This document shows positions 1-34,936 of a stretch of 64,000 nucleotides of DNA, in pieces. The first letter of the stretch is position 1; the number at the start of each line of letters is the position of its first letter. A program made the translations under genes and the position numbers. Location of the stretch: positions 1 to 64,000 of the forward strand of contig NZ_JAAKEB010000011.1 of assembly GCF_011038965.1 (NCBI RefSeq). Direction: 5' to 3'. Under the pieces are notes generated by a model. It was not told the origin of the DNA and did no database searches. It saw only the letters and a program-made list of their open reading frames with translations. Source of the DNA: Adlercreutzia sp. ZJ141 (lineage in GTDB: Bacteria; Actinomycetota; Coriobacteriia; Coriobacteriales; Eggerthellaceae).

Positions 1-1924
1 TGTCGCGCGCCTCAGCCTCCGGCTGGTCGAGCAGCACCGCATGAAAGTCGGTGAGGGTCGGGGTCGTGGCACCATCTGCGCACCTGGCGTATGCCGCCTC
101 GACGCAGCGCGTGATGATTGACTTGTCAGCCTCGGGAAGGCCTTCGGAAGACTCCGCCATCATTGCGCTTGAAAGGGCCAAAAACGCATCGATCTTGAAC
201 GCGAGCTGTGCGGCGTCGGCTTTGCCCTCCACGTCTGCGAGGTCGAAGGGGTTGAGTGCCGTGTCAGCGTCGGGGGCAAGACGTACGTTCACGCCGCCTA
301 ATGCCTCGATGAGGTTTCCGTATTCTCCGGCCGGGTCGAAGATGATGATCTCGTCTTCGGGGTAGGCGAGCACGGTGTTCGTGATCTCTCGCTTCACCGA
401 AAACGACTTTCCGGAGCCGGGCTTGCCGCAAACGAACCCCATGGGGCTTGCGAGCTTCTTGCGGTTGCAGATGACGAGGTTGCCGGACTGCTTGGACTGC
501 CCGTAGTAGCCACCGCCCTCCTGGTTGAGCTCAAGGGAGGCGAAGGGCATTTGCATGGCGATCTGGCCGGTGGTGAGGTAGCGCGTCACATCGATGTGGT
601 TTGCCCCCAGCGGCAGCACCGAGTTCAAGGCCTGGCGCTGGCGGTAGTAGAGAGGCTCGATCCCAAGGGAGTTTCCCTGGCCCACCGAGATGACCTGCTC
701 CACCTGGCGCTCAAGTGTCTCTATCGCATCAGCGTAGGTGTAGACAAGGCCGGTGTAGACGAAGAGCCGCTCGTTTTTGTTGCGCAAAAAGTCGAGGAGC
801 TCTTCGGCCTCCTCCTTGGAATAGCGAAGCTCAGGGGGCAGGATCGTGTAATCGTAGCCCTTCTTCATGGCGCTCATCTGCTCGTCGATGATCTCCTTGT
901 CCATCCAGTCGAGCTGGCGCTTCACGAGCGCGAGCGCATCTGACTGCGCGATGGGCTGGATGTGGAGGTTCACCGACAGCGGCATGGGCAGATCGATGAT
1001 GGCTGCGAGGTAGCTATCCTCAAGCATCGAGCCGAACGTGCGGATCGAGAGCACGCATCCGTACGTCTCGTCGACCTTGAAGATGTCTGCGCGGCCGCTC
1101 GGCTTGAAGTCGATGAGGGCTGGCGCGATGAGGTCGCGTGTGCGCACGTTTGAGCGGGGACTAATCTTCTCCCATGTAAACGTAAAGGGAGCGCGCGGCC
1201 GAAGCTGCGACTGGATGGCGCGCAGGCGCTCGGTGCCGTCAAGCGCATGTGCGTCGCAGCGGATGCGCGAGAGGGTATCTATCACGTCGCCTTTGATGCG
1301 GGAAAGCTTCGGCACGGCATCCGTGACGTCGTCAGCTCCCACCATGTAGGTGAGGTATCGGTGGCGCGTGAGGTTTGATATCCCCTCGCGCATCTTGTCG
1401 TTTAGGATCTGGTTGTACTCGCGCGCGTACTTGGACGTGTCGGGGTCGTCCTCGGGAAAGAAGCGCTTGTGCCCGATCTCGTCTGCGGGGATGGGCACGT
1501 TGGCGATGGTGAGCTGGACGCACGAGTCGGCCCCGAAGTAGTTGTAGAGCGAGGAGAGTACGGAAAATATGTTCTGCTGGCTCTCGCGTCGAGCCGACTG
1601 GTAGGAGATGTCTGCGAACTCGACGGTCTGGGAGAAGAGCCCCTCCTCGACCTGGGCGATGCCGTCCTTATACATCGCGTCGTAACCGATGAACGACGAT
1701 ATGTCCTTGGCAGCGGCGCGCGCCTTCTTCTGGCGCGCCACCTTCTCCTCGTGTGCCTTTTTCGAGCGCTCGGCGTTAGATGTCGCTCCCATCATCTGAC
1801 GGAGAACGCCTGGGCTCGGCGCATGCGACCTCGCCTTCTCGCGAGCCGCCCTTCGCTTTTCCTTAAGACGTTTCCTTTCGGCTCTTTCGCTTTTCTTCTT
1901 CGTTTTCCTGTCTGGATGGCTCAT
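1..1924 (-). CDS. VirB4-family conjugation ATPase (partial, runs off left edge)
   Basis: This gene encodes the large ATPase that powers type IV secretion during conjugation and assembles at the inner membrane face of the channel. About 641 codons are visible and the C-terminus lies outside the window. The first 70 residues are very rich in Lys and Arg. A Walker A motif GKPGSGKS sits at about residues 500-507 (bases 404-427), in frame with the ATG at 1924. That start is chosen because it follows prgI in the order usual for this family; the two genes overlap by 62 bp, which suggests translational coupling. The next genes upstream are PrgI, a Maff2-like protein and VirD4, the usual Gram-positive ICE set. 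Family assignment is firm from the ATPase motif plus context; the exact subfamily is not resolved. Confidence 0.85.
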   Translation of the reverse strand, partial: MSHPDRKTKKKSERAERKRLKEKRRAAREKARSHAPSPGVLRQMMGATSNAERSKKAHEEKVARQKKARAAAKDISSFIGYDAMYKDGIAQVEEGLFSQTVEFADISYQSARRESQQNIFSVLSSLYNYFGADSCVQLTIANVPIPADEIGHKRFFPEDDPDTSKYAREYNQILNDKMREGISNLTRHRYLTYMVGADDVTDAVPKLSRIKGDVIDTLSRIRCDAHALDGTERLRAIQSQLRPRAPFTFTWEKISPRSNVRTRDLIAPALIDFKPSGRADIFKVDETYGCVLSIRTFGSMLEDSYLAAIIDLPMPLSVNLHIQPIAQSDALALVKRQLDWMDKEIIDEQMSAMKKGYDYTILPPELRYSKEEAEELLDFLRNKNERLFVYTGLVYTYADAIETLERQVEQVISVGQGNSLGIEPLYYRQRQALNSVLPLGANHIDVTRYLTTGQIAMQMPFASLELNQEGGGYYGQSKQSGNLVICNRKKLASPMGFVCGKPGSGKSFSVKREITNTVLAYPEDEIIIFDPAGEYGNLIEALGGVNVRLAPDADTALNPFDLADVEGKADAAQLAFKIDAFLALSSAMMAESSEGLPEADKSIITRCVEAAYARCADGATTPTLTDFHAVLLDQPEAEARD

Positions 1925-2312
1925 TGCCCTCAGCTCCTTTCCTTCTCGCTGCGCGTCTCGCCTTCCTGCTCGGGCATCCAGCCTCGATGCGCTTAAGGTC
2001 TGGTGCGGCAGGGCTTGAGTAGAGCAGCCGTTGGTCTTTGATGTGATGCGCTGCCAGAAGAGGGATGAACTTCTCCGCGCGCATTCCGAAGGGCCGCCAG
2101 AAGCCGACGAGCCAAAACGGGATCGATGCGCACATGACGGGGAAGGCCGCATCAGCCACCTCTATGCCGACCCAGAAATGCCACATGGCAGCTGCGGCGA
2201 TAGCCGAGCCGAACCCTCCCGTCACGCACAGAAGCGTTCGAAACGAGAGCTTGCCGACGATCTTCTCCTCGTATTCGCCGATGTCCTTCTGAACGGGGAT
2301 CTGCAGGGACAT
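1863..2312 (-). CDS. PrgI family conjugation membrane protein
   Basis: This 149-residue protein starts MSLQIPVQKDIGEYEEK, typical of PrgI-family proteins, which are small inner-membrane parts of Gram-positive type IV secretion systems and usually precede VirB4. Two hydrophobic segments follow (about residues 25-45 and 50-68), then the motif GFWRPFGMRAEKFIPLL, and a charged Arg/Glu/Lys-rich C-terminal tail. The ATG at 2312 is preferred over an upstream one at 2450 because the extra 46 residues are Pro/Ser/Arg-rich and run back into the preceding gene. It lies 10 bp downstream of the Maff2-like gene and overlaps virB4 by 62 bp, so the three are very likely one transcript. Confidence 0.85.
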   Translation of the reverse strand: MSLQIPVQKDIGEYEEKIVGKLSFRTLLCVTGGFGSAIAAAAMWHFWVGIEVADAAFPVMCASIPFWLVGFWRPFGMRAEKFIPLLAAHHIKDQRLLYSSPAAPDLKRIEAGCPSRKARRAARRKGAEGNEPSRQENEEEKRKSRKETS

Positions 2313-2322
2313 GCCTGCCCCC

Positions 2323-2538
2323 TTACGCCGGAAGCCAGGACGTGTCGAGCGCCCCGAAATAGACTGCGGCGGCGATGATGATGGCGCCACCTGCGATGGT
2401 TGATATGGCGGAGGCGATCTGCGAGCCTCCTTGCTGTTCCCTGATGGCAAGGCCGAGCGACACCGCTCCCCAGACGACCAGAAAGCCGCCGAGGAAGGTC
2501 ACGCAACCCGACACCAGGTTGATGATGTTTGCGAGCAT
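2323..2538 (-). CDS. Maff2/VirB2-like small membrane protein (putative conjugation pilin)
   Basis: A 71-residue protein with two hydrophobic stretches separated by a short polar loop (REQQGGSQ), the layout of the Maff2 family found just ahead of PrgI in Gram-positive conjugative elements and thought to be the VirB2/pilin counterpart. The ATG at 2538 has an upstream AAAGGA ribosome-binding site; the longer reading frame to 2736 has an Arg-rich, non-membrane N-terminus and is discounted. The gene sits between virD4 and prgI. About 190 bp between it and virD4 hold no recognised gene. Family assignment is by length, topology and position; sequence identity to a known family member was not tested. 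Confidence 0.7.
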   Translation of the reverse strand: MLANIINLVSGCVTFLGGFLVVWGAVSLGLAIREQQGGSQIASAISTIAGGAIIIAAAVYFGALDTSWLPA

Positions 2539-2732
2539 GTCTTCATGTCCTTTGCGTCTTGGTTGTGCGCGCAAGACCCCCAAGAAATGGAATGGGGCTC
2601 TTGCATGCGATGGTAGAATTAGCCTCGCGAAGGGCGCGTGCGCTCCTTTGCGTCTTGATCGGCTGCGGCGGCCGGGCGTGCGTGGAATCACGACCGGCCT
2701 TTGATGGCTGTTGTGAGCCTGCCGCAGCCTTC

Positions 2733-4559
2733 TCACTCATCCATGAGCGACCCCTCCCTTCGGGCCCGGTAGCGCGTGAAGTCGAAGGCACCGCGCTTGC
2801 GTGCGGCGTCAAGTAACATGCGTCTCAGGTGCTTGTCCAAGGGATACTTCTTGTCCTTGAAGGCCTGCGCTCCGTTGATGAGCACGAGCGCCTCATCGCG
2901 CGGCATGCGGGAAACTTCGGATGCCTGCATGAGGTCGCGCTCGATAAGGCCGTAGTTGTGCGTGTAGGAGGGGTTCGCCCCTCGCGAGTCGTTCACGGAG
3001 ACGCTTGCCACCGTCTGCTTTCCGATCATGTCTGCGATCTTCTGGTTGGTGTCAGCGGACTTGCCGCCCAGGAAAAGGAGCGTGTCGCATGCGTTCATGA
3101 TGGTCGCTGCGTTGTTCTCCCCGTAGTTCTCGTCGAGCTGGGAGAGCGACTGCAAGATCATGGACACGGCGATGTTTCTGCTCCTCGTCACCGTTATCAT
3201 GCGCTCGAAGTCAGGTATCACGCCGATGTTGGCGAACTCGTCGAAGACGAAGTGAACACATCTCGGCAGCGATCCTGAAAAGCGCGAAAGGGCGACCTCG
3301 CAAAGCGCGTCGAGCGCCTGCTGCATGAGAAGCGCGAACACGAAGTCGAAGGTCGAGTCGGTATCCGACATCGAGCAGAAGACGGCGACTTTGGAGCCTG
3401 CGTCCCCCAGATGGTCGAGCGCCATCTCGTCGTAAGCGAGCAGCTCTCTCATCTCGGCGACGTCGAAGGGCTTCATGCGCACGTTGCACGACACCATGAT
3501 GGACTTGAGCGTTTTCCCGGCGGCGACTTTGAACTGCTTGTAGCTCGCGAGCGCGAAGTCGTCCTCTGGTCGTATGGGAGAGGCCACCTTCACCCAGGCA
3601 TACCCGCTCGATGCGGGCTGGAACTCGCGTGAAGAGACGTCGTAGCCTTTCACGTCGGCCACCTTCATGAGCCTCTCGCCGGTCTCGATTTCGTGGAAGA
3701 GCATGTCAAGCGGGCTCATGTAGTCCTCGTCGTCCTCCCGCGCATCAGCCAGGGCCAAAAGCGCGAGGAGGCCCGGGATGTTTCTGTCCTCTTCGGGGCA
3801 ATGCAAAAGCAGATACGAGACGAGGGCTGTGTAGAGGAGTTTCTCGGCGTTCTCCCAGAAGGGGTCTCCTGCATGCTGGTCGTCTCCTGTGGTGTTGCGG
3901 ATGATGCACTCGACGAAGCGAAGGACGTCAGCCTCGCCGTCAACGTAGGACAGCGGGTTGAAGTGGAGGGAGCGCGCAAAGTCGATGGTGTCGAAAGTCC
4001 TGATCTCGTATCCGGCGTCTTCGAGCACCCAGCCCATGTCGTGTATGAGCGTTCCTTTGGGGTCGGTGATGAAGTAGTTGGCGTTAACCTGCATGAGGTT
4101 GGGCTTGACGAAGTAGCGGGTCTTGCCCGTGCCGGGGCCGCCTATGACAAGTACGTTGTTGTTGGTCTCGGTCTTCTGGTCGTGGGCCTTGTCGATGAGC
4201 CTGATCGAAGCGTGCTCGGTCAGAAGGATGTTGTTGTCAGCATCGCTCCTGTCCGAGAACGCCTCCATCTCCTTGCGGCTCGCCCAGCGAGCGCTTCCGT
4301 GCTCCTCGCCCTTGCGATAGCGCCCGCGCCGCTCCCACGAGCGCACCCAGACAAGCCACACCGCACACGAAAGCGCAGCCCCTATCGCAAGCGGCAGGGG
4401 GTCGAGGAAGAAGACTTTGCCCGAAGCGATGTTCGAGAGCAGAAGCGCCGCCATGTCCGCTTGCGGCTCTTGAGCTGACAAAAGCGTGCCGCATGCGATA
4501 TCTCCGGCCGCAAACGCGAGGGCTGAGAGCGTCGTGATGAGGGCGAGTTCTCCTCTCAT
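2733..4559 (-). CDS. VirD4/TraG-type conjugative coupling protein
   Basis: This 608-residue ATPase couples the relaxase-DNA complex to the type IV channel at the inner membrane. Two N-terminal membrane segments (about residues 5-27 and 55-73) are followed by a Walker A GGPGTGKT at residues 140-147 and a Walker B-like FVFDEFANIG near residue 436, with the downstream TRSRNIAVSMILQSLSQL stretch typical of TraG/VirD4 proteins. Length fits the family. The ATG overlaps the stop codon of the upstream PcfB-like gene (ATGA), a sign of translational coupling. Together with virB4 and prgI it shows that this element encodes, or encoded, its own transfer apparatus. Confidence 0.92.
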   Translation of the reverse strand: MRGELALITTLSALAFAAGDIACGTLLSAQEPQADMAALLLSNIASGKVFFLDPLPLAIGAALSCAVWLVWVRSWERRGRYRKGEEHGSARWASRKEMEAFSDRSDADNNILLTEHASIRLIDKAHDQKTETNNNVLVIGGPGTGKTRYFVKPNLMQVNANYFITDPKGTLIHDMGWVLEDAGYEIRTFDTIDFARSLHFNPLSYVDGEADVLRFVECIIRNTTGDDQHAGDPFWENAEKLLYTALVSYLLLHCPEEDRNIPGLLALLALADAREDDEDYMSPLDMLFHEIETGERLMKVADVKGYDVSSREFQPASSGYAWVKVASPIRPEDDFALASYKQFKVAAGKTLKSIMVSCNVRMKPFDVAEMRELLAYDEMALDHLGDAGSKVAVFCSMSDTDSTFDFVFALLMQQALDALCEVALSRFSGSLPRCVHFVFDEFANIGVIPDFERMITVTRSRNIAVSMILQSLSQLDENYGENNAATIMNACDTLLFLGGKSADTNQKIADMIGKQTVASVSVNDSRGANPSYTHNYGLIERDLMQASEVSRMPRDEALVLINGAQAFKDKKYPLDKHLRRMLLDAARKRGAFDFTRYRARREGSLMDE

Positions 4560-5101
4560 CGCGTCTTCACCTCGAAGCGCTCGACCTTATGGGTAGCGTT
4601 TTTCGCCTCGTGCGCCGCCTTGCTCGCCGTCCGCGCTGCCCGCGCCTTGTCCTCGAGCGGCTCCTCATCGCGCGCGTGCGAAAGCTTGACCTCGCGCGCC
4701 TTGCATGCGCGCTCAAGCTCGGCATCCACGTCTTTCTCAAGCGTGCGGAAGACCTCGTCAACCTCAGGTGCGTCCGCCACGCGGAATACTAGGTGGTCAT
4801 GTCCGCCCACTACTGCAAAGTCGTGCTCGATGGCGGCTTGGATGAGCCTCTCGTCGATGATCTCGCGCAAGCTCGCATAGTCGGGCAGCTTTTCGAACTC
4901 GGAGAGGTTGAGGCGTGCGAACTCGCGCACCGCAACATCTTGGCCGGGTGCTTTTCCGTCGAGGCTTCCGCGCAGGTTGCGTAGCGCACTTTTCAGCTTC
5001 TCTGCTGATGCGCGGATGGCCTCCTCGCTCGCGTCTTGCCCGAGCCGCAAGAACCAGTCGAAGAGCTTCTCTCCCGATTCGTCCCCGAAGTCACTTGCCA
5101 T
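4556..5101 (-). CDS. PcfB/DUF3801-like conjugation accessory protein
   Basis: A 181-residue soluble protein with an Ala/Lys/Glu-rich, probably helical C-terminal third (about residues 135-175). The N-terminal GEKLFDWFLRLGQ segment and the central DFAVVGGHDHLVFRV strand resemble the DUF3801/PcfB family, which is encoded next to VirD4 in Gram-positive conjugative elements and helps deliver the relaxase to the coupling protein. Start: ATG at 5101, preceded by GGAGG on the minus strand. It overlaps virD4 by 4 bp. The family call rests on size, position and weak motif resemblance, so it is moderate; an unrelated accessory protein remains possible. Confidence 0.5.
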   Translation of the reverse strand: MASDFGDESGEKLFDWFLRLGQDASEEAIRASAEKLKSALRNLRGSLDGKAPGQDVAVREFARLNLSEFEKLPDYASLREIIDERLIQAAIEHDFAVVGGHDHLVFRVADAPEVDEVFRTLEKDVDAELERACKAREVKLSHARDEEPLEDKARAARTASKAAHEAKNATHKVERFEVKTR

Positions 5102-5127
5102 GCCCTCACCTCCTTCGAAGGCTTTGC

Positions 5128-5871
5128 CTATCGTTCGCCCACGCGCGGGTCTGCCGCGCGCTCGGCTCTGTCTTGCGATTTGACTGCGCGCACGGCCTCT
5201 TTGATCCTCTGCCCGATCGTCATCGCCTGCGGCTGTCTCATGTGCTGCTCATAGGCGCTGATCTGGGCGTTGATCGTCTGGATGAGCGTCATGTCCTCCT
5301 GGTCGTGTTCGGAGATGTCTATAAGACCTGCTCCTTTGAACGTGAGCATCTTGCCGGTACGGGTCGCCTCGACCAACATCACGAAGTTCTCGCCTCGGGC
5401 CTTAACCGACCCGTCGTCGAGATAGGGGAACGCGTCGCCGCCCCAGGTGAGCCCTGCCCTTTCCGGTAGGTAGTCGAGGTGTTTGCATTCTTCGGGCGTG
5501 GCGAGGCGCATTCCCGCGATGTGGCGCACGAGCTCGGATCTGTCCTTTGCGAGGGGCTTGAAGTTCACGGACTCGAAGGGGATCCAATCATCCCCGTCCT
5601 TCTTGAGCGCCCACCACTCGTCACCGCCGTTGACCTGTTGGATGAATGCGAGATCGCCGTAGACGACGCCCTGACGTATGGCCCAGTTCCCGGCTTGGAA
5701 GAAGTCCGACAAATCGTCGATGGAAAAGCAGCGGTCGAACTCGTAGGGGTACTCTTCGAGGTAGGGGTCGTCCTGCCAGTCGCAGCCGCCGCGCTTGAGC
5801 CAGTCGTTTCGCTGGCATACCTCCTCCAAGCTCTCCTGCTCTTCGGGGGTCACCGGATGCATGTTGTACAT
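5128..5871 (-). CDS. Hypothetical ICE protein, function not recognised
   Basis: A 247-residue soluble protein without membrane segments. It is rich in Trp, Asp and Glu in its first half and ends in a basic region (RIKEAVRAVKSQDRAERA). I do not recognise a domain. The ATG at 5871 is chosen because it has an AAGGA ribosome-binding site 6 bp upstream and begins MYNMHPVTPEEQ; an upstream in-frame ATG at 6066 adds 65 Arg-rich residues and lacks a good binding site. It is the first gene of the leftward conjugation set, 26 bp ahead of the PcfB-like gene, so a role in transfer or its control is an inference from position only. The 219 bp upstream hold no recognised gene. Confidence 0.6.
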   Translation of the reverse strand: MYNMHPVTPEEQESLEEVCQRNDWLKRGGCDWQDDPYLEEYPYEFDRCFSIDDLSDFFQAGNWAIRQGVVYGDLAFIQQVNGGDEWWALKKDGDDWIPFESVNFKPLAKDRSELVRHIAGMRLATPEECKHLDYLPERAGLTWGGDAFPYLDDGSVKARGENFVMLVEATRTGKMLTFKGAGLIDISEHDQEDMTLIQTINAQISAYEQHMRQPQAMTIGQRIKEAVRAVKSQDRAERAADPRVGER

Positions 5872-6090
5872 CTTTCGTCCTTCGTCTCGGATTCTCCTTG
5901 GCCGGCTGCTTTGGCGAGAACGGCAGGGCACTTGTCTTTCGAATCGCGCCCTGAAGGGGTTCGAGTTAACTGTGTTTCGGGCGATATGTATCTCCCCGCC
6001 GCCGGTTTCTTTATAGCGAGGGAAAGCAATTGCTTGTGGAAATGGTTTGCGGTTGCTTTTGCTCATGTTGTTGTTTAACTAACCGGACGA

Positions 6091-26852: not shown

Positions 26853-27635
26853 TTAATGCCTCTTTTTGCCGCCTTTTTTCTTAGGGCGAGGCTTCTTTTC
26901 CTTCCTCGTCACATCAATCTCAATCGGCTGAACTTCGATCTCGTTCGATTCCTCTTCATCACGTTTACGCATAATACTCATTGCAATTTGCTGTTGTACA
27001 ACACCGAAGAGAGATGACACTCCCCAGAATAAAAGTACGCCCGCTGGCGAACTCCAACCAATCCACAGCATCATTAAGCTCATAAGACCAGACATAATGT
27101 ACATTTGCTGCTTTTGCTTAGGATCGGAGTTGTTCTTCTGCTGAAGAAACATTGGTAAGAATGTTGCTCCCGCGAACACAACCATCAAGATGACATAGGG
27201 TAAGAAAAAGAGAAATCCCTGACCAAGAGCCTGTGATGGTGTAGTAACCAAGCTAGGAACGAGATTATAGAACTCATACGTGCCCTGAACACGATCGCCC
27301 ATCTCGCGCAACACCTGAAACAACGCCATAAAAATTGGCATTTGTAGAAGCATTGGTAAACACCCAGCAAGCGGGTTGAATTTCGCTTCTGCGTACAATT
27401 TCTGCATCTCAACATTCATACGTTGAGGATCATCAGCATACTTCGACTGCAGTTGTTGGATCTTAGGCTGGATCTTCTGCATTTGATAGCTCGACTTCGA
27501 CTGCTTATGCACAATCGGAGCCATGATCAGGCGGAAGATGACGGTGATTATAATAATCGCCATTCCCCAGTCACCAACAAAGTCGTAGAAGAAACTGATG
27601 ATATCAAAGATCCAATCTTTGAATACCGACCACAT
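26853..27635 (-). CDS. yidC: Membrane protein insertase YidC
   Basis: A 260-residue Oxa1/YidC insertase that places proteins into the cytoplasmic membrane, alone or with SecYEG. It has the short Gram-positive form: an N-terminal membrane segment, the cytoplasmic hairpin (KMQPKIQQLQSKYADDPQRMN-like), and four further membrane segments including CLPMLLQMPIFMALF and VLLFWGVSSLFGVVQQ. The tail is very basic (KEKKPRPKKKGGKKRH), as expected for ribosome contact. No lipobox is evident at the N-terminus. It lies 52 bp after yidD and before jag. Confidence 0.95.
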   Translation of the reverse strand: MWSVFKDWIFDIISFFYDFVGDWGMAIIIITVIFRLIMAPIVHKQSKSSYQMQKIQPKIQQLQSKYADDPQRMNVEMQKLYAEAKFNPLAGCLPMLLQMPIFMALFQVLREMGDRVQGTYEFYNLVPSLVTTPSQALGQGFLFFLPYVILMVVFAGATFLPMFLQQKNNSDPKQKQQMYIMSGLMSLMMLWIGWSSPAGVLLFWGVSSLFGVVQQQIAMSIMRKRDEEESNEIEVQPIEIDVTRKEKKPRPKKKGGKKRH

Positions 27636-27687
27636 AATTCCTTCCTTCCTTTATATACCAAAGAGCACCACGTAGTACAGATCCCGC

Positions 27688-27921
27688 TCAGGGTACAGGA
27701 TCGTAACCATGTGGTCCTCCCGGACGACACCGTAGAATCCTCTTAATGGTGAGGATAAAACCTTTTTTGAACCCATATTTCCGAAAAGCGATCAAACTAT
27801 ACTGAGAACACGTTGGTTGAAATCGACAGCACGAGGGAAACAAAGGAGATATCGCAGCTTGATAAAACAAAATAACAAGCGTTGCTACTCGAACGGGAAG
27901 CTGTTTAATTCTGTCTATCAT
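27688..27921 (-). CDS. yidD: Membrane protein insertion efficiency factor YidD
   Basis: A 77-residue protein of the DUF37/YidD family: amphipathic N-terminal helix, then [25 protein letters not shown] and the C-terminal [14 protein letters not shown] signature. It aids YidC-dependent insertion at the membrane. The ATG at 27921 ([12 protein letters not shown]) gives a normal length and overlaps rnpA by 17 bp; a frame to 27978 adds 19 residues and is less likely. Confidence 0.93.
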
Positions 27922-28258
27922 AAACGGAATCTCGAACAAACCCAGCTTTTTGCGCTGTTTCGGTACATACACTGACAAGTGTTTTAAATGTAATACTATT
28001 CACATTTCTTTTCGCGAGAAATACCACATCAAAGCCTTTCCAGGGACCTCCCGCCAAATAACACGCCTCTCTCATGCGTCTCTTTGCACGGTTTCTCCAA
28101 ACAGCATTCCCTAACTTTTTTCCCGCTATAAAAGCAACACGACCATTAAGGTCGTGCCGCTTTGTTGGTAACACTATGAAAGTCAGGTAAGGCGTATGGA
28201 AACGCTTGCCAGAGGAAAAGAGATCGGAGATTTCCTGTTTCGATGTTATAGTCTCCAA
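27905..28258 (-). CDS. rnpA: Ribonuclease P protein component
   Basis: A 117-residue basic protein that assists RNase P RNA in tRNA 5' maturation. The conserved core [20 protein letters not shown] is present, as are the early [15 protein letters not shown] and FVVLP-like strands. The likely start is the TTG at 28258, with AAGGAAG about 8 bp upstream, giving the usual N-terminus; the frame stays open further but that part overlaps rpmH. It starts 13 bp after rpmH. Confidence 0.93.
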
Positions 28259-28271
28259 CCTAAGCTTCCTT

Positions 28272-28406
28272 TTACACGCAAAGACGTTTACGTCCCTTGG
28301 CGCGGCGGCGAGCCAAAACCTTACGGCCGCTCTTGGTCGCCATACGAGCACGGAAACCGTGGCACTTAGCCCGCTTACGAGTGTTAGGTTGATACGTGCG
28401 CTTCAT
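28272..28406 (-). CDS. rpmH: 50S ribosomal protein L34
   Basis: A 44-residue, highly basic ribosomal protein beginning [18 protein letters not shown] and ending in KGRKRLCV, a near-standard L34. GGGAAA lies just upstream of the ATG at 28406. It is the first gene of the leftward rpmH-rnpA-yidD-yidC-jag operon, the classic neighbour of oriC and dnaA. Confidence 0.98.
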
Positions 28407-29181
28407 ATTATTTCCCTTTCATGGTTAAGAGCAACTCCCAAATTATATACTGAATTCCCAGCTCGTCAACTGTTTTTCATAATTCATATTGATACCTAAA
28501 ACCTCCCCGGCTTTCATCACAGCCTTCCAATTTTCGTTTATATACCTGCAGTGTGAAGAGGAAAAACAAGGAAAGAAACGGGAATTATATAAGATAAGGA
28601 GTTCTTTCTCTTTTGTTATCCTGTATGTCGATCATGAAATTGTGGAAAATGTTGAAAACTTCGAAATCACTCATAAACCGTGGTGGAAAAACCTTTCTTT
28701 TCAATTTGTCAAGAGTGTTACCTTTTACATATGACATAGTGTTTCATCAGGCATTTAATAATACAAACATCTGTTTTGTCGCTTTTGACCTGGTATTTTA
28801 ATATTATTTAACAACAACATCTCTGAAAATTATTTTTTAAATCTTGTCAAATTAACGATTATCCTGTTCAAGTAGGTTTTCTCAGTTTTCGAACGATTCC
28901 CTTTTTGTTTTGAGAATTATTCAACAACTCATCTCTTCTTTCATTAGTTTTCCCCAATTTCCTATAGCTACTTTTCAATGTTTTCAACATTTCATGAATA
29001 AAAAGTTAAAAACCTGGGAAACCCCTTATGAATACGATATTTTCACCTGGATGAATAATGGAAACAGTAAAGGAAATTCTCTCTTTTCGCAGATGAATAG
29101 ATTCATTATCTAAATACAGCTACAATGAGCGCGGAATAATCTTGAAAAGTATGAAATATCAGGTCTGAAAACGGAAAACAA
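28407..29181. other. Candidate oriC: AT-rich gap with DnaA-box-like sites
   Basis: This 775-bp stretch between rpmH and the HATPase gene has no convincing gene and is strongly AT-rich. DnaA-box-like 9-mers are TGTGGAAAA (28641-28649, complement TTTTCCACA), TGTTGAAAA (28650-28658), GGTGGAAAA (28682-28690), TTTTCCCCA (28948-28956) and TTTTCAACA (28981-28989). Runs of A/T near 28795-28860 could be an unwinding element. It contains the change from leftward to rightward gene direction. Function as the origin is inferred. Confidence 0.65.
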
Positions 29182-29982
29182 TTGGAAAACCAGATCGAAC
29201 ATAACGAGAATCACCCTAATGTTTCCTTAGAAGAGGGAGGGTTTGATTACTCATACGTCCATACAATAGCTCGAATAGCCCGCTATGACGATAAGCTTGC
29301 CGCGCCACGCGTAATTGAGATTCAACCCGCTCCGACAGCCGATTTTATTGAAACACTCGCATCATCTATCGACCGCGAAGCACGCATGCTTGGAGGAACA
29401 ATTCCATATGCGGTCATTCGCGAAGTGTCCGAGAACTTTATTCATGCGCGATTCGAAGAGATCGTTGTGTCAATCCTTGACGACGGCAATACCATCAGAT
29501 TTGCTGACCAAGGGCCAGGTATCACCGATAAAACCAAAGCACAATTACCAGGTTTTACCTCAGCAATCGAACCGATGAAACGCTATATTCGAGGTGTTGG
29601 ATCCGGTTTACCTCTCACAAAAGAGTATCTCGATATGAAAAATGGAACAATTTCAATCGAGGATAATCTCGGAACGGGCGCAGTAGTAACCGTTAGTCTA
29701 AAACAACATTCCAGGTCTGCGTTTAATCAGCAGATGGTAGGTAATCGTAATCACTCAAGTATCCCTATACCCCCGTTAAATGAACGTCAACGTGACATTC
29801 TTAAATGCTTCGAATCTGAAGGGGCACTTGGGGTTACCGACGTGGTAAACCTTACTGGTTACCCAACTTCTTCAACCTATAAGGAACTTCAACGCCTCGA
29901 AGAAGCGGGATTATTGGAAAAAACAATGGGAAAGAAGAGAATTCTCACTGATATGGGATTTCAGGTAGCAAGCTCTTTGTAG
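29182..29982 (+). CDS. HATPase-domain protein with C-terminal winged helix, upstream of dnaA
   Basis: A 266-residue soluble protein. A GHKL/HATPase-type ATP-binding domain covers about residues 55-175: N-box EVSENFIHA (81-89), G1 DQGPGI (109-114), G2 GVGSGLPLTK (138-147) and a final GTGAVVTV. No histidine phosphoacceptor, sensor or membrane segment is seen. Residues 198-262 form a winged helix-turn-helix (ERQRDILKCFESEGALGVTDVV...). The start is probably the TTG at 29182; the upstream binding site is weak. It lies 112 bp before dnaA on the same strand, in the origin. Combining an anti-sigma/kinase-like ATPase with a DNA-binding domain suggests a transcriptional or origin regulator; the function is not known to me. 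Confidence 0.8.
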   Translation: MENQIEHNENHPNVSLEEGGFDYSYVHTIARIARYDDKLAAPRVIEIQPAPTADFIETLASSIDREARMLGGTIPYAVIREVSENFIHARFEEIVVSILDDGNTIRFADQGPGITDKTKAQLPGFTSAIEPMKRYIRGVGSGLPLTKEYLDMKNGTISIEDNLGTGAVVTVSLKQHSRSAFNQQMVGNRNHSSIPIPPLNERQRDILKCFESEGALGVTDVVNLTGYPTSSTYKELQRLEEAGLLEKTMGKKRILTDMGFQVASSL

Positions 29983-30094
29983 AACGTTTCTCTTATGAAG
30001 CGCCCCATCGACCCTTATTTGATATAAAATCGGAAGTTACCCGAAGGCGCTCATAAGGAATAATCAGCAGACGAAACCTGGAGAGACGACTGCA

Positions 30095-31657
30095 ATGAAC
30101 AGCGAAAAACTCGAACATACCTGGAACGTACTATGTGAAACAGTTAAAGAGTACGAAGAGATCGATCCTGCTCAGATTAATGCATTCTTTTCCAGACTCC
30201 AACCTCAAGCGATGAGTGACGGTTTTCTCATGCTGACCGCTGATAACGAATTCATTAAAACCTGGATTGAACGGCATTACGTTGGCTATATCAAGCGCGC
30301 ACTCAGTGATGAATATGGAATACCATTCACTGTTGTGGTAGAAGTTGACGCTACACAGGGCTTATATTCACAACAAACCCAATCTAATACAGGAAATGTG
30401 CGCTCTACCTCCACGACAACAACCCAATCATCAGCGACAACAACCGAAGAGATAGCAAATATCTTTCAATCTTCTGAGCTAGAACAACTAACAAATAAGA
30501 AGGAAGATCAAATAATACAAAGGTCACAGGTATTTGACCAATTATCAATTCAACCCAACGATTTTTCGGTTAAAAGGTATTCCAGTGGGCGCATGTGTGA
30601 CAGCGTAACAGGGGCCCTAACTTTCGAGAATTTCGTCATCGGCGATTCGAATCGAATGGCATATCATATGGCGGTGTCAGTTGCTGAAGTACCCGGAAAG
30701 AAGACACTTAATCCTTTGTTTATTTATGGACGATCTGGATTAGGAAAAACTCATTTACTTCGCGCTATACAAAACTATATCAACGAGACGCAACCCCATC
30801 TCCAGACAATCTATGTCGATTCTGCTGAACTGTTGTCGGACTATATGGATGCCAGCGCCGCACATGACAAGGAAAAACAGAGTTATCGTAACTTTAAGAA
30901 TAAATACGAAGAAGCTGACGTATTACTTATTGACGACGTTCAATGGCTTCAAGGTAAGAAACAAACCCTCGACATCGTGTTTCAGATCTTCAACAAGCTT
31001 ATTGATGAGGGAAAACAAGTAGTTCTCTCCGCCGACCGTGCACCAAAGAATATCGATATCGATGAGCGTTACATCAGCAGGTTTAATTCGGGCGGTACGT
31101 TTGATATCCAACCACCCGAATTTGAAACCAAGCTCGGTATCGTGCGTAGTTTTATCAGCGAATATAAAGAAAACGAACATGATGATAATTTCGTCATCCC
31201 TGAAGATATCCAGATGTATATCGCAGAAAGTTCGAGTTCAAACATTCGAGAACTAAAAAGCGCAGTAACCAAGGTGATATACCAAATTTCCTTGGTTAGT
31301 TCTAAGAATATTACGCTCGACGACGTAAAAAAACTGCTTGAGAATCATTTTACCGGCGGGCCATCACGGAGAGTTACTATCGCTGATATTCAAAAAACAG
31401 TCGAGGGCTTCTATAAGGTCAACCATAACGATTTAGTAGGAAAAAAACGTACGCGTGAGATCAAGTATGCTCGTCAAGTGGCTATTTATCTCTGTCGACA
31501 AATCCTCGATTTACCATACAACGACATAGGAAAGAAATTCTCCCGAGACCACTCGACCGTCATGTATTCAGTTTCTATCATTGAAGAGAAAATGAAAGAA
31601 AACCGAGAGTTGCGTGAGGAAATTGAAACATTACGCCAGCTCATTCAAGAAATTTAG
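30095..31657 (+). CDS. dnaA: Chromosomal replication initiator DnaA
   Basis: A 520-residue AAA+ initiator that binds DnaA boxes and melts oriC. Domain I is recognisable (TWNVLCETVKEYEEIDP, ADNEFIKTWIERHY), followed by a Ser/Thr/Gln-rich linker (about 90-160), an AAA+ core with Walker A GRSGLGKTH (from about residue 212) and Walker B LLIDDVQW (about 278), and domain IV with the DNA-binding signature RDHSTVMYSVS. ATG at 30095 follows CTGGAGAG. It is followed by dnaN after 252 bp. The longer linker accounts for the length above a minimal DnaA. Confidence 0.98.
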   Translation: MNSEKLEHTWNVLCETVKEYEEIDPAQINAFFSRLQPQAMSDGFLMLTADNEFIKTWIERHYVGYIKRALSDEYGIPFTVVVEVDATQGLYSQQTQSNTGNVRSTSTTTTQSSATTTEEIANIFQSSELEQLTNKKEDQIIQRSQVFDQLSIQPNDFSVKRYSSGRMCDSVTGALTFENFVIGDSNRMAYHMAVSVAEVPGKKTLNPLFIYGRSGLGKTHLLRAIQNYINETQPHLQTIYVDSAELLSDYMDASAAHDKEKQSYRNFKNKYEEADVLLIDDVQWLQGKKQTLDIVFQIFNKLIDEGKQVVLSADRAPKNIDIDERYISRFNSGGTFDIQPPEFETKLGIVRSFISEYKENEHDDNFVIPEDIQMYIAESSSSNIRELKSAVTKVIYQISLVSSKNITLDDVKKLLENHFTGGPSRRVTIADIQKTVEGFYKVNHNDLVGKKRTREIKYARQVAIYLCRQILDLPYNDIGKKFSRDHSTVMYSVSIIEEKMKENRELREEIETLRQLIQEI

Positions 31658-31909
31658 GAAAAGTGGACAACATGATAAAACATGACTCAAATATGACTGA
31701 TAACCACCAATCGATAGGGGAAAGATAATTTCAGCAATAAAACAGGTGGATATCTTGGAGAGATTTACACTGTATTCAAGAACGAACATTTTCACTCTCA
31801 TATGCGGTTTTAACAGTTTTCCACTTTTTAACCGTCGTTATTATTGTTGTTATTCAAAAACCAATAGATATAGAAGAAACAACGAATCACTGTAGGGAAG
31901 GAAATAATC
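31658..31909. other. dnaA-dnaN spacer with DnaA-box-like sites
   Basis: No gene is seen. AGTGGACAA (31662-31670, complement TTGTCCACT) and TTTTCCACT (31817-31825) are close to actinobacterial DnaA boxes, and the region is AT-rich, so it may be a second part of the origin or a control region for dnaN. Confidence 0.5.
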
Positions 31910-33010
31910 GTGAGATTCAGTATTAATCAATCAGAGCTGCAAAATGCACTATCTGTCGTTTTAAAGGGAATTTCAACCCGGTCGACACTTCCCGTACTTT
32001 CAGGTATTTATATCGATGCAAATAATGACTCATTAACACTGCAAACAACCGACTTATCGTTATCTATCCAGTACACTGTTGCGGCACTCATTGATACACC
32101 CGGACGTGTAGTTGTTCCGGGTAAGCTGTTTAGTGAAATCGTAAAGAGTCTTCCTGATGCGGCAGTTCATTTCGCATTGGAAGGAGAGTCAGCTATTATT
32201 ACGTGTGATGCAGCTTCTTTCTCAATTAAGACACTCGATGCAGAGGAATTCCCAGGCTTTCCTCACGTGGATGTCCATCAAAAGATACGAATTCCTTTCT
32301 TGAAGTTATCTTCTATGGTTAAGAAAGTTGCACGCGTAGTGTCGAAAGATGAAAGTCGTGCCATTCTTACTGGCGTACTGATCACATTAGAAGAAACAAC
32401 CTTGAAGATGGTGGCAACCGATTCATATCGCCTTGCTATCGCTGAATCAGAGGTTCCTGAGGCCGCAGCTGACAACTTTGAAGCTGTTATTTCAGGACCT
32501 TTTTTACAAGAAATTGCAGCTATGGTGAAGTCTGATGACGATGTAACTATTGCCTTAGCGGAAAACCAAATCGTCGTAACATATCATGACACTATGCTTA
32601 TTAATCGCCGTATTGAAGGATCATTCCCAAATTATCGCCAACTACTACCTAAAACATGTACTACACGCGTTGCTATGGATAAGAACCATTTAGTGTCTGC
32701 TGTAAAGCGTGCGTCGTTACTGATTCAGACATCATCACCGGTGCGTTTCTCTATTGATACCGAAGTACAAGCGGTACAGGTGTCCTCGGCGGCTCACGAT
32801 ATCGGATCAGCTCAGGAAGTTGTTTCGTGTGAAGCTGAAGGTGAATCGGTTGAGATTGCATTTAACTATACTTATGTGCTTGATGGATTGGCGGCAATTG
32901 ATACTGATCAGGTATTTCTTGAGGTTAATGAGGGTATGAAACCAGGAATATTTAAATCGGATAACCCGGATAATTTCCTTTATCTCGTTATGCCAGTGCG
33001 TATTTCTTAA
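31910..33010 (+). CDS. dnaN: DNA polymerase III beta clamp
   Basis: A 366-residue protein forming the dimeric sliding clamp that tethers DNA polymerase III. N-terminal MRFSINQSELQNALSVVLKGI, the middle TLKMVATDSYRLAIAE and FPNYRQLLPK, and the C-terminal YLVMPVRIS are all standard. The start is the GTG at 31910, preceded by GGGAAGGAAA. It lies between dnaA and recF as usual, 14 bp before recF, so these are probably co-transcribed. Confidence 0.98.
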   Translation: MRFSINQSELQNALSVVLKGISTRSTLPVLSGIYIDANNDSLTLQTTDLSLSIQYTVAALIDTPGRVVVPGKLFSEIVKSLPDAAVHFALEGESAIITCDAASFSIKTLDAEEFPGFPHVDVHQKIRIPFLKLSSMVKKVARVVSKDESRAILTGVLITLEETTLKMVATDSYRLAIAESEVPEAAADNFEAVISGPFLQEIAAMVKSDDDVTIALAENQIVVTYHDTMLINRRIEGSFPNYRQLLPKTCTTRVAMDKNHLVSAVKRASLLIQTSSPVRFSIDTEVQAVQVSSAAHDIGSAQEVVSCEAEGESVEIAFNYTYVLDGLAAIDTDQVFLEVNEGMKPGIFKSDNPDNFLYLVMPVRIS

Positions 33011-33024
33011 AACAGCGGTGTTGT

Positions 33025-34227
33025 GTGAGCTTAACAATTCGCCATATTACCCTGTCGAATTTCCGCAGTTATGCGGCATTTGAGTTGTCTGACATAGGGC
33101 CGCTCACTATTCTGGTTGGACCGAATGCGACTGGGAAGACGAATCTCATGGAAGCATTGCGCTTAGTAACGGCGCAACGTACACTTCGGCATGCTTCCAC
33201 CGATCAGCTGGTTCGAAAAGATTGTAACTATACATCGATAACAGCGGATATAAGTGATGGTAATCGTCAGCTTTCCTTAGAGACTCGCATAATTGATAAT
33301 AAACGTCACTATTTGTTGAATGGTAAATCAAAACGCAATGGAGATATGAAAGGGGTAATTCCTTCAGTCGCCTTTGTTCCGGATGATTTAAATCTTGCAA
33401 AAGGATCGATGTCCACTCGTCGTCAAGCAGTTGATGCTCTTGGAGAACAACTGTCAATGAACCATTATCTGATCCGGAAAGACTATGAGAAGTTGCTTAA
33501 GCATAAAAACTCTGCATTAAAGGAAGGTTGTGAACCGGATGTATTAGATGCGGTGAATGAGATAATCGTAACCGTTGGTGCTCAACTTACCTGTTACCGT
33601 GCAGCGCTATTTTCAAAGCTCATGGTTTATTTAGCATCATTTTATCAAGAGATAACGGATGAAAAAGAAACAGTATCGGGGTACTATATTCCTTCATGGG
33701 AGCGTGATAGTGAAAGCGTTTTAACCTATGAATATAATCACATACCGTACGTTCGTGATGAAGCAAGAGATTTATTACGTGCTTGTCTTAATCAACGAAA
33801 AGGAGAAGAACTAGCGCGGCGGCGATCTCTTGTTGGTCCGCATGCTGATACCATTGAGTTTCAAATTGACGGGATGAACGTGGCAGCATACGGTAGTCAA
33901 GGTCAACAACGGTCGTTAGTGTTAGCATTTAAGCTCGCTGAGGTAGCTCTTATTCATGAAATACTAGGTCAACAGCCGATCATTCTCCTAGACGACGTAA
34001 TGAGTGAACTTGATGATGATCGTCGTCAATCACTAATATCATTCTTATCAAAAGACATGCAAACATTTATTACTACAGCACACCTTGACTACTTTGATAA
34101 CGAAACACTCTACCGCGCGCGTGTGGTTACATTAGGAAAAGAGAAGGGGAGTACCTTTATCGAACGTGATACGCCCCCATTTTCTGGAAGGGAGGCGTTG
34201 AATGAAGCGGTTAAATGTGGGTATTAA
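33025..34227 (+). CDS. recF: DNA repair and replication protein RecF
   Basis: A 400-residue SMC-like ATPase that helps load RecA at gapped DNA. N-terminal ITLSNFRSYAAFEL with Walker A GPNATGKTNL, the signature region AYGSQGQQRSLVLAFKLAE, and Walker B ILLDDVMSELDDDRR are present. The start is the GTG at 33025. It overlaps the next gene (dciA-like) by 26 bp, indicating a tight operon dnaN-recF-dciA. Confidence 0.97.
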   Translation: MSLTIRHITLSNFRSYAAFELSDIGPLTILVGPNATGKTNLMEALRLVTAQRTLRHASTDQLVRKDCNYTSITADISDGNRQLSLETRIIDNKRHYLLNGKSKRNGDMKGVIPSVAFVPDDLNLAKGSMSTRRQAVDALGEQLSMNHYLIRKDYEKLLKHKNSALKEGCEPDVLDAVNEIIVTVGAQLTCYRAALFSKLMVYLASFYQEITDEKETVSGYYIPSWERDSESVLTYEYNHIPYVRDEARDLLRACLNQRKGEELARRRSLVGPHADTIEFQIDGMNVAAYGSQGQQRSLVLAFKLAEVALIHEILGQQPIILLDDVMSELDDDRRQSLISFLSKDMQTFITTAHLDYFDNETLYRARVVTLGKEKGSTFIERDTPPFSGREALNEAVKCGY

Positions 34228-34936
34228 CGATTTCATGCGATCGTCTTCCGTGTATGGTTTATCAAAGAAAGCTATTCGCGTTGCCCAGGTTCATGCTGCT
34301 TGGCGTCGTGCAGTTGAAGAAGTATATAGTGAAGCTTCTGGTCTTATTCTTATGCATACGAATGCAGTGTATATTATGAAAGATACCGATAATTGTATTT
34401 CTTCGGATGTCATAGATTCTGAAACCGATTCTTGTACGACTGTTCATCAGTCTGAGTATATGTGTGATGTCGGATTATCCGTAATAGAATTCGGTGTTAA
34501 AGAACATAACAATAATGGGTCTTCTATTGACCATGTGACTGACTATAAACGTGTTTCACGTGAAACACGTCGTTTCTCACCAAAGCAACTAATTGTATAT
34601 TCCGATGACAGTATGGTGAGATCAGATCTTGATGCTCGTCAAGAGTTTCTAAAGATGAGACTTCGAGAATCAGGGGAGTATATTGAAAAATTCAAGATAC
34701 TGCCGTCAAAAATGGATATGCGTTCACGCCATCCTTTTCTTGATGAAGACGGGAATCTAAAGAAAGGATCGGATGTGAATATGTCACGTTCTGAGAGGTT
34801 TAAAAAACTTGAAGTTCCTGCTGAGACATTCGATATGCTTATCAATCACGTGGAAGATATTGATAATGAACAGGTGAAAAAGTCGCTCGATAAAGCAATA
34901 CGAGCCAATCTAAGCAGAAGTAAAGACATTTCATGA
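34202..34936 (+). CDS. DUF721/DciA-like protein downstream of recF
   Basis: A 244-residue protein in the position held in actinobacteria by the DUF721 (DciA-type) gene between recF and gyrB. DciA is the helicase-loading factor that replaces DnaC/DnaI in many bacteria. The VHAAWRRAVEEVYSEAS segment is the recognisable DUF721-like helix; the following strand and the long charged middle part are divergent, and the C-terminal half (DARQEFLKMRLRESGEY onward) is longer than in minimal DciA. A parS site lies within its codons. ATG at 34202 has GGAAGGGAGG upstream. Assignment rests mostly on position. Confidence 0.65.
   Translation: MKRLNVGINDFMRSSSVYGLSKKAIRVAQVHAAWRRAVEEVYSEASGLILMHTNAVYIMKDTDNCISSDVIDSETDSCTTVHQSEYMCDVGLSVIEFGVKEHNNNGSSIDHVTDYKRVSRETRRFSPKQLIVYSDDSMVRSDLDARQEFLKMRLRESGEYIEKFKILPSKMDMRSRHPFLDEDGNLKKGSDVNMSRSERFKKLEVPAETFDMLINHVEDIDNEQVKKSLDKAIRANLSRSKDIS
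34552..34567. promoter_or_regulatory. parS site inside the dciA-like gene
   Basis: Perfect TGTTTCACGTGAAACA, part of a 22-bp palindrome (34549-34570), read in frame as VSRET. It is the only parS on the dnaA side of the origin in this window. Confidence 0.95.

Follow-up and report, generated by a model that had tools for sequence, protein, structure and literature searches.

Directly beside dnaA, at the edge of the putative replication origin of Adlercreutzia sp. ZJ141, we found a gene whose product joins a GHKL ATPase domain to a C-terminal winged helix and whose place is kept across a large part of the phylum. Proteins that combine a GHKL domain with a winged helix are a known kind; the place of this one is unexpected and strongly conserved. 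The invariant ATP-site residues, a glutamate at position 81 (E81), and the retained wing arginine of the winged helix together speak for an ATP-gated DNA-binding switch, and that part of the reading, taken alone, is very probably correct. The constant position at a gap with DnaA boxes argues for oriC, or the promoters inside the gap, as the target; on this evidence of position the odds for such a target are about even. The two parts together, a soluble ATP-gated DNA-binding switch acting mainly at the oriC gap and its promoters, have slightly less than an even chance of being right. The features of the gene and of dnaA in the window, which is the whole 64,000-nucleotide stretch of DNA analyzed, are as follows.

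29182..29982, plus strand: GHKL-ATPase/winged-helix gene (open reading frame, Pfam, homologs)
29269..29700, plus strand: GHKL (HATPase_c) domain, residues 30-173 (AlphaFold models, Pfam)
29422..29448, plus strand: N box EVSENFIHA, residues 81-89, with E81 four residues before N85
29506..29520, plus strand: G1 box DQGPG, residues 109-113 (D109, G111, and G113 invariant in near and far loci)
29593..29607, plus strand: G2 box GVGSG, residues 138-142 (alignments of near and far loci)
29701..29775, plus strand: linker, residues 174-198 (low pLDDT at 187-191)
29776..29976, plus strand: winged-helix domain, residues 199-265, MarR/MntR-like (Pfam, fold match, conservation)
30095..31657, plus strand: dnaA (open reading frame, homology)

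The 266-amino-acid open reading frame begins with TTG, and this start and its surrounding sequence are common to the genes of several relatives. It is a real, constrained gene, because the aligned homologs from 53 fetched family and order loci have more than 30 invariant columns and dN/dS was 0.04 to 0.24 in nine pairs; a chance open reading frame or a pseudogene is ruled out by the same two results, and the sequence comparisons indicate that the gene is under purifying selection. N85, H88, D109, G111, G113, G138, G140, and G142 do not vary in the 53 aligned loci. Over a larger set of homologous loci (133 near and 41 distant, with some genomes counted twice in the near set via different collections), N85, H88, D109, G111, G113, G138, and G142 are invariant. 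Position 81 is Glu in 126 of the 133 near loci and in all 41 distant ones, with Gln in the remainder, and the arginine of the wing, R253, is kept in 129 of the near loci and in every distant one. A glutamate four residues before the N-box asparagine is the general-base position in SpoIIAB and in GyrB/MutL-type ATPases. In the family alignments the winged helix is less conserved than the GHKL domain, and the length of the linker ranges from 12 to 200 residues across relatives, the long forms being rich in Ala, Pro, Gln, Gly, and Tyr; low-complexity linkers of this composition exceed 100 residues in L014, L019, L028, and similar loci.

The domain architecture is as the earlier note had described it, an ATPase with intact N, G1, and G2 boxes joined to a winged helix and lacking a sensor and a phosphoacceptor histidine, and on this Pfam, the structural model, and the alignments agree. 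Pfam matched HATPase_c at residues 76-175 (39.1 bits; cut-off, 26.4) and HTH_IclR at residues 205-247 (33 bits; cut-off, 22), the latter also in 38 of 40 family members. No HisKA/DHp or sensor domain, AlbA_2, or HATPase_c_4 (PF13749) was matched in the protein at an E value of ≤1, and HATPase_c_4 is also absent from the 25 Pfam families listed for the 40 family members. In the full-length AlphaFold model (pLDDT, 87; GHKL domain modeled alone, 89), the GHKL domain spans approximately residues 30 to 173 and is followed by a short linker and by the winged helix at 199-265; only about 29 residues, mostly of low pLDDT, precede it, which leaves no room for an N-terminal AlbA_2 domain.

The top fold match of the whole protein is DIP2311 of Corynebacterium diphtheriae (3lmm; Foldseek E value, 1.3e-6), which is also the top match of the GHKL domain (VIA-align 2: Z score, 14.3; 143 residues aligned; 2.7 A). 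We take DIP2311 to be an AlbA_2/HATPase/winged-helix protein of the COG2865 type. In both proteins a winged helix follows the GHKL domain, but in DIP2311, a protein of about 555 residues, the GHKL domain lies at 231-409 and is preceded by a large part, and the protein described here is without the N-terminal domain of DIP2311-type (COG2865) proteins. DIP2311 has been termed a target of unknown function (PMC8780604). With a sequence profile of the family, 3lmm was not among the 60 best PDB sequences at an E value of ≤0.1.

Among sensor histidine kinases, HK853, CpxA, and YycG have the HATPase_c family and the N, G1, and G2 boxes in common with the protein; the GHKL domain aligns with histidine kinases at Z scores of about 10 (VIA-align 2), and Foldseek with this domain alone puts kinases first. 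Their sensor, HisKA/DHp domain, and phosphoacceptor helix are missing here, with a C-terminal winged helix instead, and a histidine kinase identity is ruled out by the missing DHp domain (Pfam, model). The GHL ATPases GyrB, MutL, and Hsp90 also have the glutamate four residues before the N-box asparagine, but in these a transducer follows the GHKL domain, whereas in the 266-amino-acid protein the linker and winged helix come next in place of a transducer domain. The C-terminal domain has the fold of MarR/MntR/IclR-type regulators (Z scores of 11 to 13 over about 70 residues); the ligand or dimerization domains of these regulators are missing, and the winged helix is joined to a GHKL ATPase.

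The second-best fold for the GHKL domain is SpoIIAB (1tid and 1l0o; VIA-align 2: Z score, 11.2; 124 residues aligned; 3.0 A), and the ExxxN N box (E81/N85) is a further SpoIIAB/RsbW-like trait. Both would suit a protein switch whose GHKL domain binds, and may phosphorylate, a partner such as DnaA or a sigma factor, with the winged helix serving just to bring it to the origin. SpoIIAB and RsbW, however, are not known to carry a DNA-binding domain, and SpoIIAB lacks the winged helix present here. No partner-switch genes, such as those for a sigma factor or an anti-anti-sigma factor, were seen among the neighbors identified, which are rpmH, rnpA, yidC, dnaA, dnaN, and recF, these replication and rpmH-operon genes being the only queries used. 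We consider such a partner switch quite improbable and favor the ATP-gated DNA-binding switch.

On one side of the gene are the gap and then rpmH, which is on the minus strand and starts at 28405; on the other is dnaA, at a distance of 112 bp (29983-30094). The earlier note had placed it within the origin; its position between the gap and dnaA is borne out, but the gene borders the gap (28406-29181) and does not lie inside it. Next to the gene, dnaA was detected in 98 of the 103 short-flank loci, and the other five have little sequence beyond the gene, with rpmH on the opposite side. Among 40 distant loci, 37 have the order rpmH-gap-gene-dnaA-dnaN, and the remaining three (L206, L210, and L220) end at a contig end before dnaA. 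The neighbor is thus dnaA in every fetched locus that reaches past the gene; the gene lying elsewhere in close relatives, which by the earlier note would have refuted its reading, was looked for and not found.

Four gene orders occur in the 73 scored loci of the family: rpmH< gap gene> dnaA> (40 loci), dnaN< gap gene> dnaA> (29 loci), dnaA< gap gene> rpmH> (2 loci), and rpmH< gap gene> dnaA< (2 loci). In all four, and in 73/73 loci, which are related by descent and not independent observations, the 5' end of the gene is toward the DnaA-box gap. The gene is divergent from or convergent with dnaA in four loci (L065, L067, L105, and L120), so that cotranscription with dnaA is not what keeps it in place; in two of the four orders it cannot share a transcript with dnaA, and it is not simply a gene of a dnaA operon. 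Local inversions are a feature of the origin surroundings in Eggerthellaceae, where dnaA has been split from dnaN or single genes have been reversed; dnaA is inverted in L105 and L120, and dnaN lies beyond the gap in L062, L064, L082, and others.

The conserved block around the gene comprises parAB, rsmG, jag, yidC, rnpA, rpmH, dnaA, dnaN, recF, and gyrB. After recF, in the place of dciA, there is an open reading frame at 34202-34936 (plus strand), to which tblastn found related sequence at the same spot in relatives; judged from its position, it is probably DciA. Conservation of the entire parAB-to-gyrB block would also be expected if the gene were an unrelated regulator that sits beside dnaA merely because the rpmH-dnaA block rarely breaks, and it counts against an origin switch that rnpA, yidC, jag, and parAB are conserved there as well although not all of them act on oriC. 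Inversions have nevertheless broken the block in several ways with the 5' end of the gene remaining on the gap, and no copy of the gene was seen away from dnaA. Such passive linkage is improbable in our judgment, and a target in the gap remains the preferred reading.

The gap and the homologous gaps are likely the origin, as judged from their sequence. The cumulative GC skew of the window has its minimum at about 30-32 kb, and the G+C content of the gap is roughly 10 to 15 points below that of its own locus in most loci. In the window, G+C is about 0.40 in the surroundings of the origin and near 0.61 at positions 1-6000, the left end. Versus 4.8 expected, 214 copies of the core TTTTCCAC were counted in the 74 homologous gaps, 70 of which contain it, and in 46 gaps of more distant genomes 95 DnaA-box-like sites were counted versus 1.6 expected. 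The DnaA-box pattern used has one or more matches in 70 of the 73 scored gaps. The elements of the gap in the window are as follows.

28406..29181, no strand: putative oriC, the A+T-rich intergenic gap from rpmH to the gene, containing DnaA boxes (sequence counts)
28442..28469, minus strand: putative rpmH promoter TTGACG-16-TATAAT (scan, 11 of 12 matches)
28641..28649, minus strand: DnaA box TTTTCCACA (window scan; conserved in alignment A2)
28650..28658, minus strand: DnaA-box-like TTTTCAACA (window scan; k-mer enriched in homologous gaps)
28682..28690, minus strand: DnaA-box-like TTTTCCACC (window scan; alignment position conserved)
28786..28799, plus strand: conserved non-DnaA origin element TGAMCTGSKRTTTT (alignment, counts)
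28981..28989, plus strand: DnaA-box-like TTTTCAACA within the conserved block GTTTTCCACA..TGAATAAA..GTTGAAAAC (alignment and scan)
29088..29104, plus strand: CGCAGATGAATAGATTC, a conserved element that overlaps the gene's putative -35 (alignment A2)
29098..29126, plus strand: putative promoter of the gene, TAGATT-17-TACAAT, with a weak -35 (read from the sequence; conserved in A2; scores below the promoter-scan threshold)

With at most one mismatch allowed, the element TGAMCTGSKRTTTT is present in 50 of the 74 family gaps (L054-L133) versus 0.3 expected, and it is largely confined to the family. Elsewhere in the genome it occurs at 33 places with at most one mismatch, versus 4 for the reversed pattern, and L231, a locus without the gene, retains it with a single mismatch. 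That it is the protein's own operator is unsupported, given its retention in L231, its occurrence elsewhere, and its mostly family-limited range. Of its five exact copies in the genome, two (L252 and L253, at C9:30193 and C37:8822) are located within or adjacent to hairpins, close to sequence that resembles tRNA genes. The element CGCAGATGAATAGATTC over the putative -35 is related to TGAMCTGSKRTTTT. No Rfam match was found within 27000-33000.

The protein might instead be an ordinary local transcription factor that responds to the ATP level by controlling its own gene and dnaA, perhaps also rpmH, and has no action on the orisome itself. A winged helix of the MarR/IclR/MntR type, the usual codirectional place directly upstream of dnaA, and the conserved element over the gene's own weak -35 would fit this. 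Where dnaA is inverted, in L105 and L120, its promoter should be off the gap, yet the gene is still at the gap. No operator shared between the gene and dnaA was seen on inspection of the intergenic sequences that separate them, and such an operator was rejected as a candidate; the inverted repeat CTTATGAAGCGCC/GGCGCTCATAAG (29992-30004/30046-30057), which flanks a possible dnaA promoter in the window, was not seen in relatives. A purely local regulator is an unlikely explanation, though one to be taken seriously, and action at the oriC gap is preferred.

In a first sample, 36 of 41 genomes had a match at an E value of ≤0.001, part of these matches being kinase-like only. With stricter limits the gene was found in 46 of 48 genera of the family and, for the class, in 252 of the 268 good genomes, which bears out the conservation beside dnaA in Coriobacteriia that the earlier note had proposed to check. 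Strong homologs are present in further classes of the phylum, and many other genomes of the phylum are without any. The pairwise distances of the protein correlate with those of DnaN at r=0.81, and those of DnaA do so at a similar level (r=0.72), a pattern that fits vertical inheritance. Against a mobile or phage gene, there was no phage match to the gene, and the six plasmid matches were all partial, several being annotated as kinases and one being an anti-sigma-like open reading frame.

In 12 of the 17 genomes lacking the gene, dnaA is likewise undetected, and the origin region is probably missing from these assemblies. Of the five with dnaA, one starts at a contig end and four (L231 to L234) have a complete rpmH-dnaA region in which dnaA and the gap are kept and no homolog was found in any frame. 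L231 and L232 are close relatives that may share one loss, and L233 and L234 are from other families, so that more than one loss of the gene is probable. These intact regions without the gene indicate that some lineages dispense with it and that it is not essential everywhere.

On the preferred reading of an ATP-gated switch, for which ATP and DNA binding are predicted from sequence and fold, ATP would be bound by the SpoIIAB/DIP2311-like GHKL domain and probably hydrolyzed slowly, with E81 as the general base. Binding or hydrolysis would alter the conformation or dimer state of this domain, and the change would be passed to the tethered winged helix as an altered DNA-binding state. The main site of action would be the oriC gap that the 5' end of the gene always faces, where the protein may tune origin firing, promoters (its own and, where divergent, that of dnaA), or both. 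Dimerization, the target site, and an effect on initiation are postulated in this scheme, and the role in replication is suggested by position.

Known regulators of DnaA or oriC include SirA, YabA, Soj, Hda, SeqA, and DnaD, of which Soj is an ATP-switch DNA-binding protein. The protein described here possibly shares with them a role in setting initiation, but is not known to share their folds. The earlier note knew of no described role, and in keeping with this the full text of the open-licence papers searched yielded nothing on the gene or on where it lies, a silence that is not proof of absence. We tentatively propose, as a possibility that we hold to be somewhat doubtful, an undescribed, phylum-deep ATPase/DNA-binding switch dedicated to oriC in Coriobacteriia and several other actinobacterial classes, which would couple ATP state to initiation together with DnaA.

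The control of initiation is known in detail from a few model bacteria. A gene at the edge of the origin that is kept across a large part of a phylum is a strong candidate for unstudied replication control, and the fact that it has remained at the origin while its surroundings were repeatedly rearranged suggests an unstudied regulatory layer in a clade that includes the common gut bacteria Eggerthella, Gordonibacter, Adlercreutzia, and Slackia.
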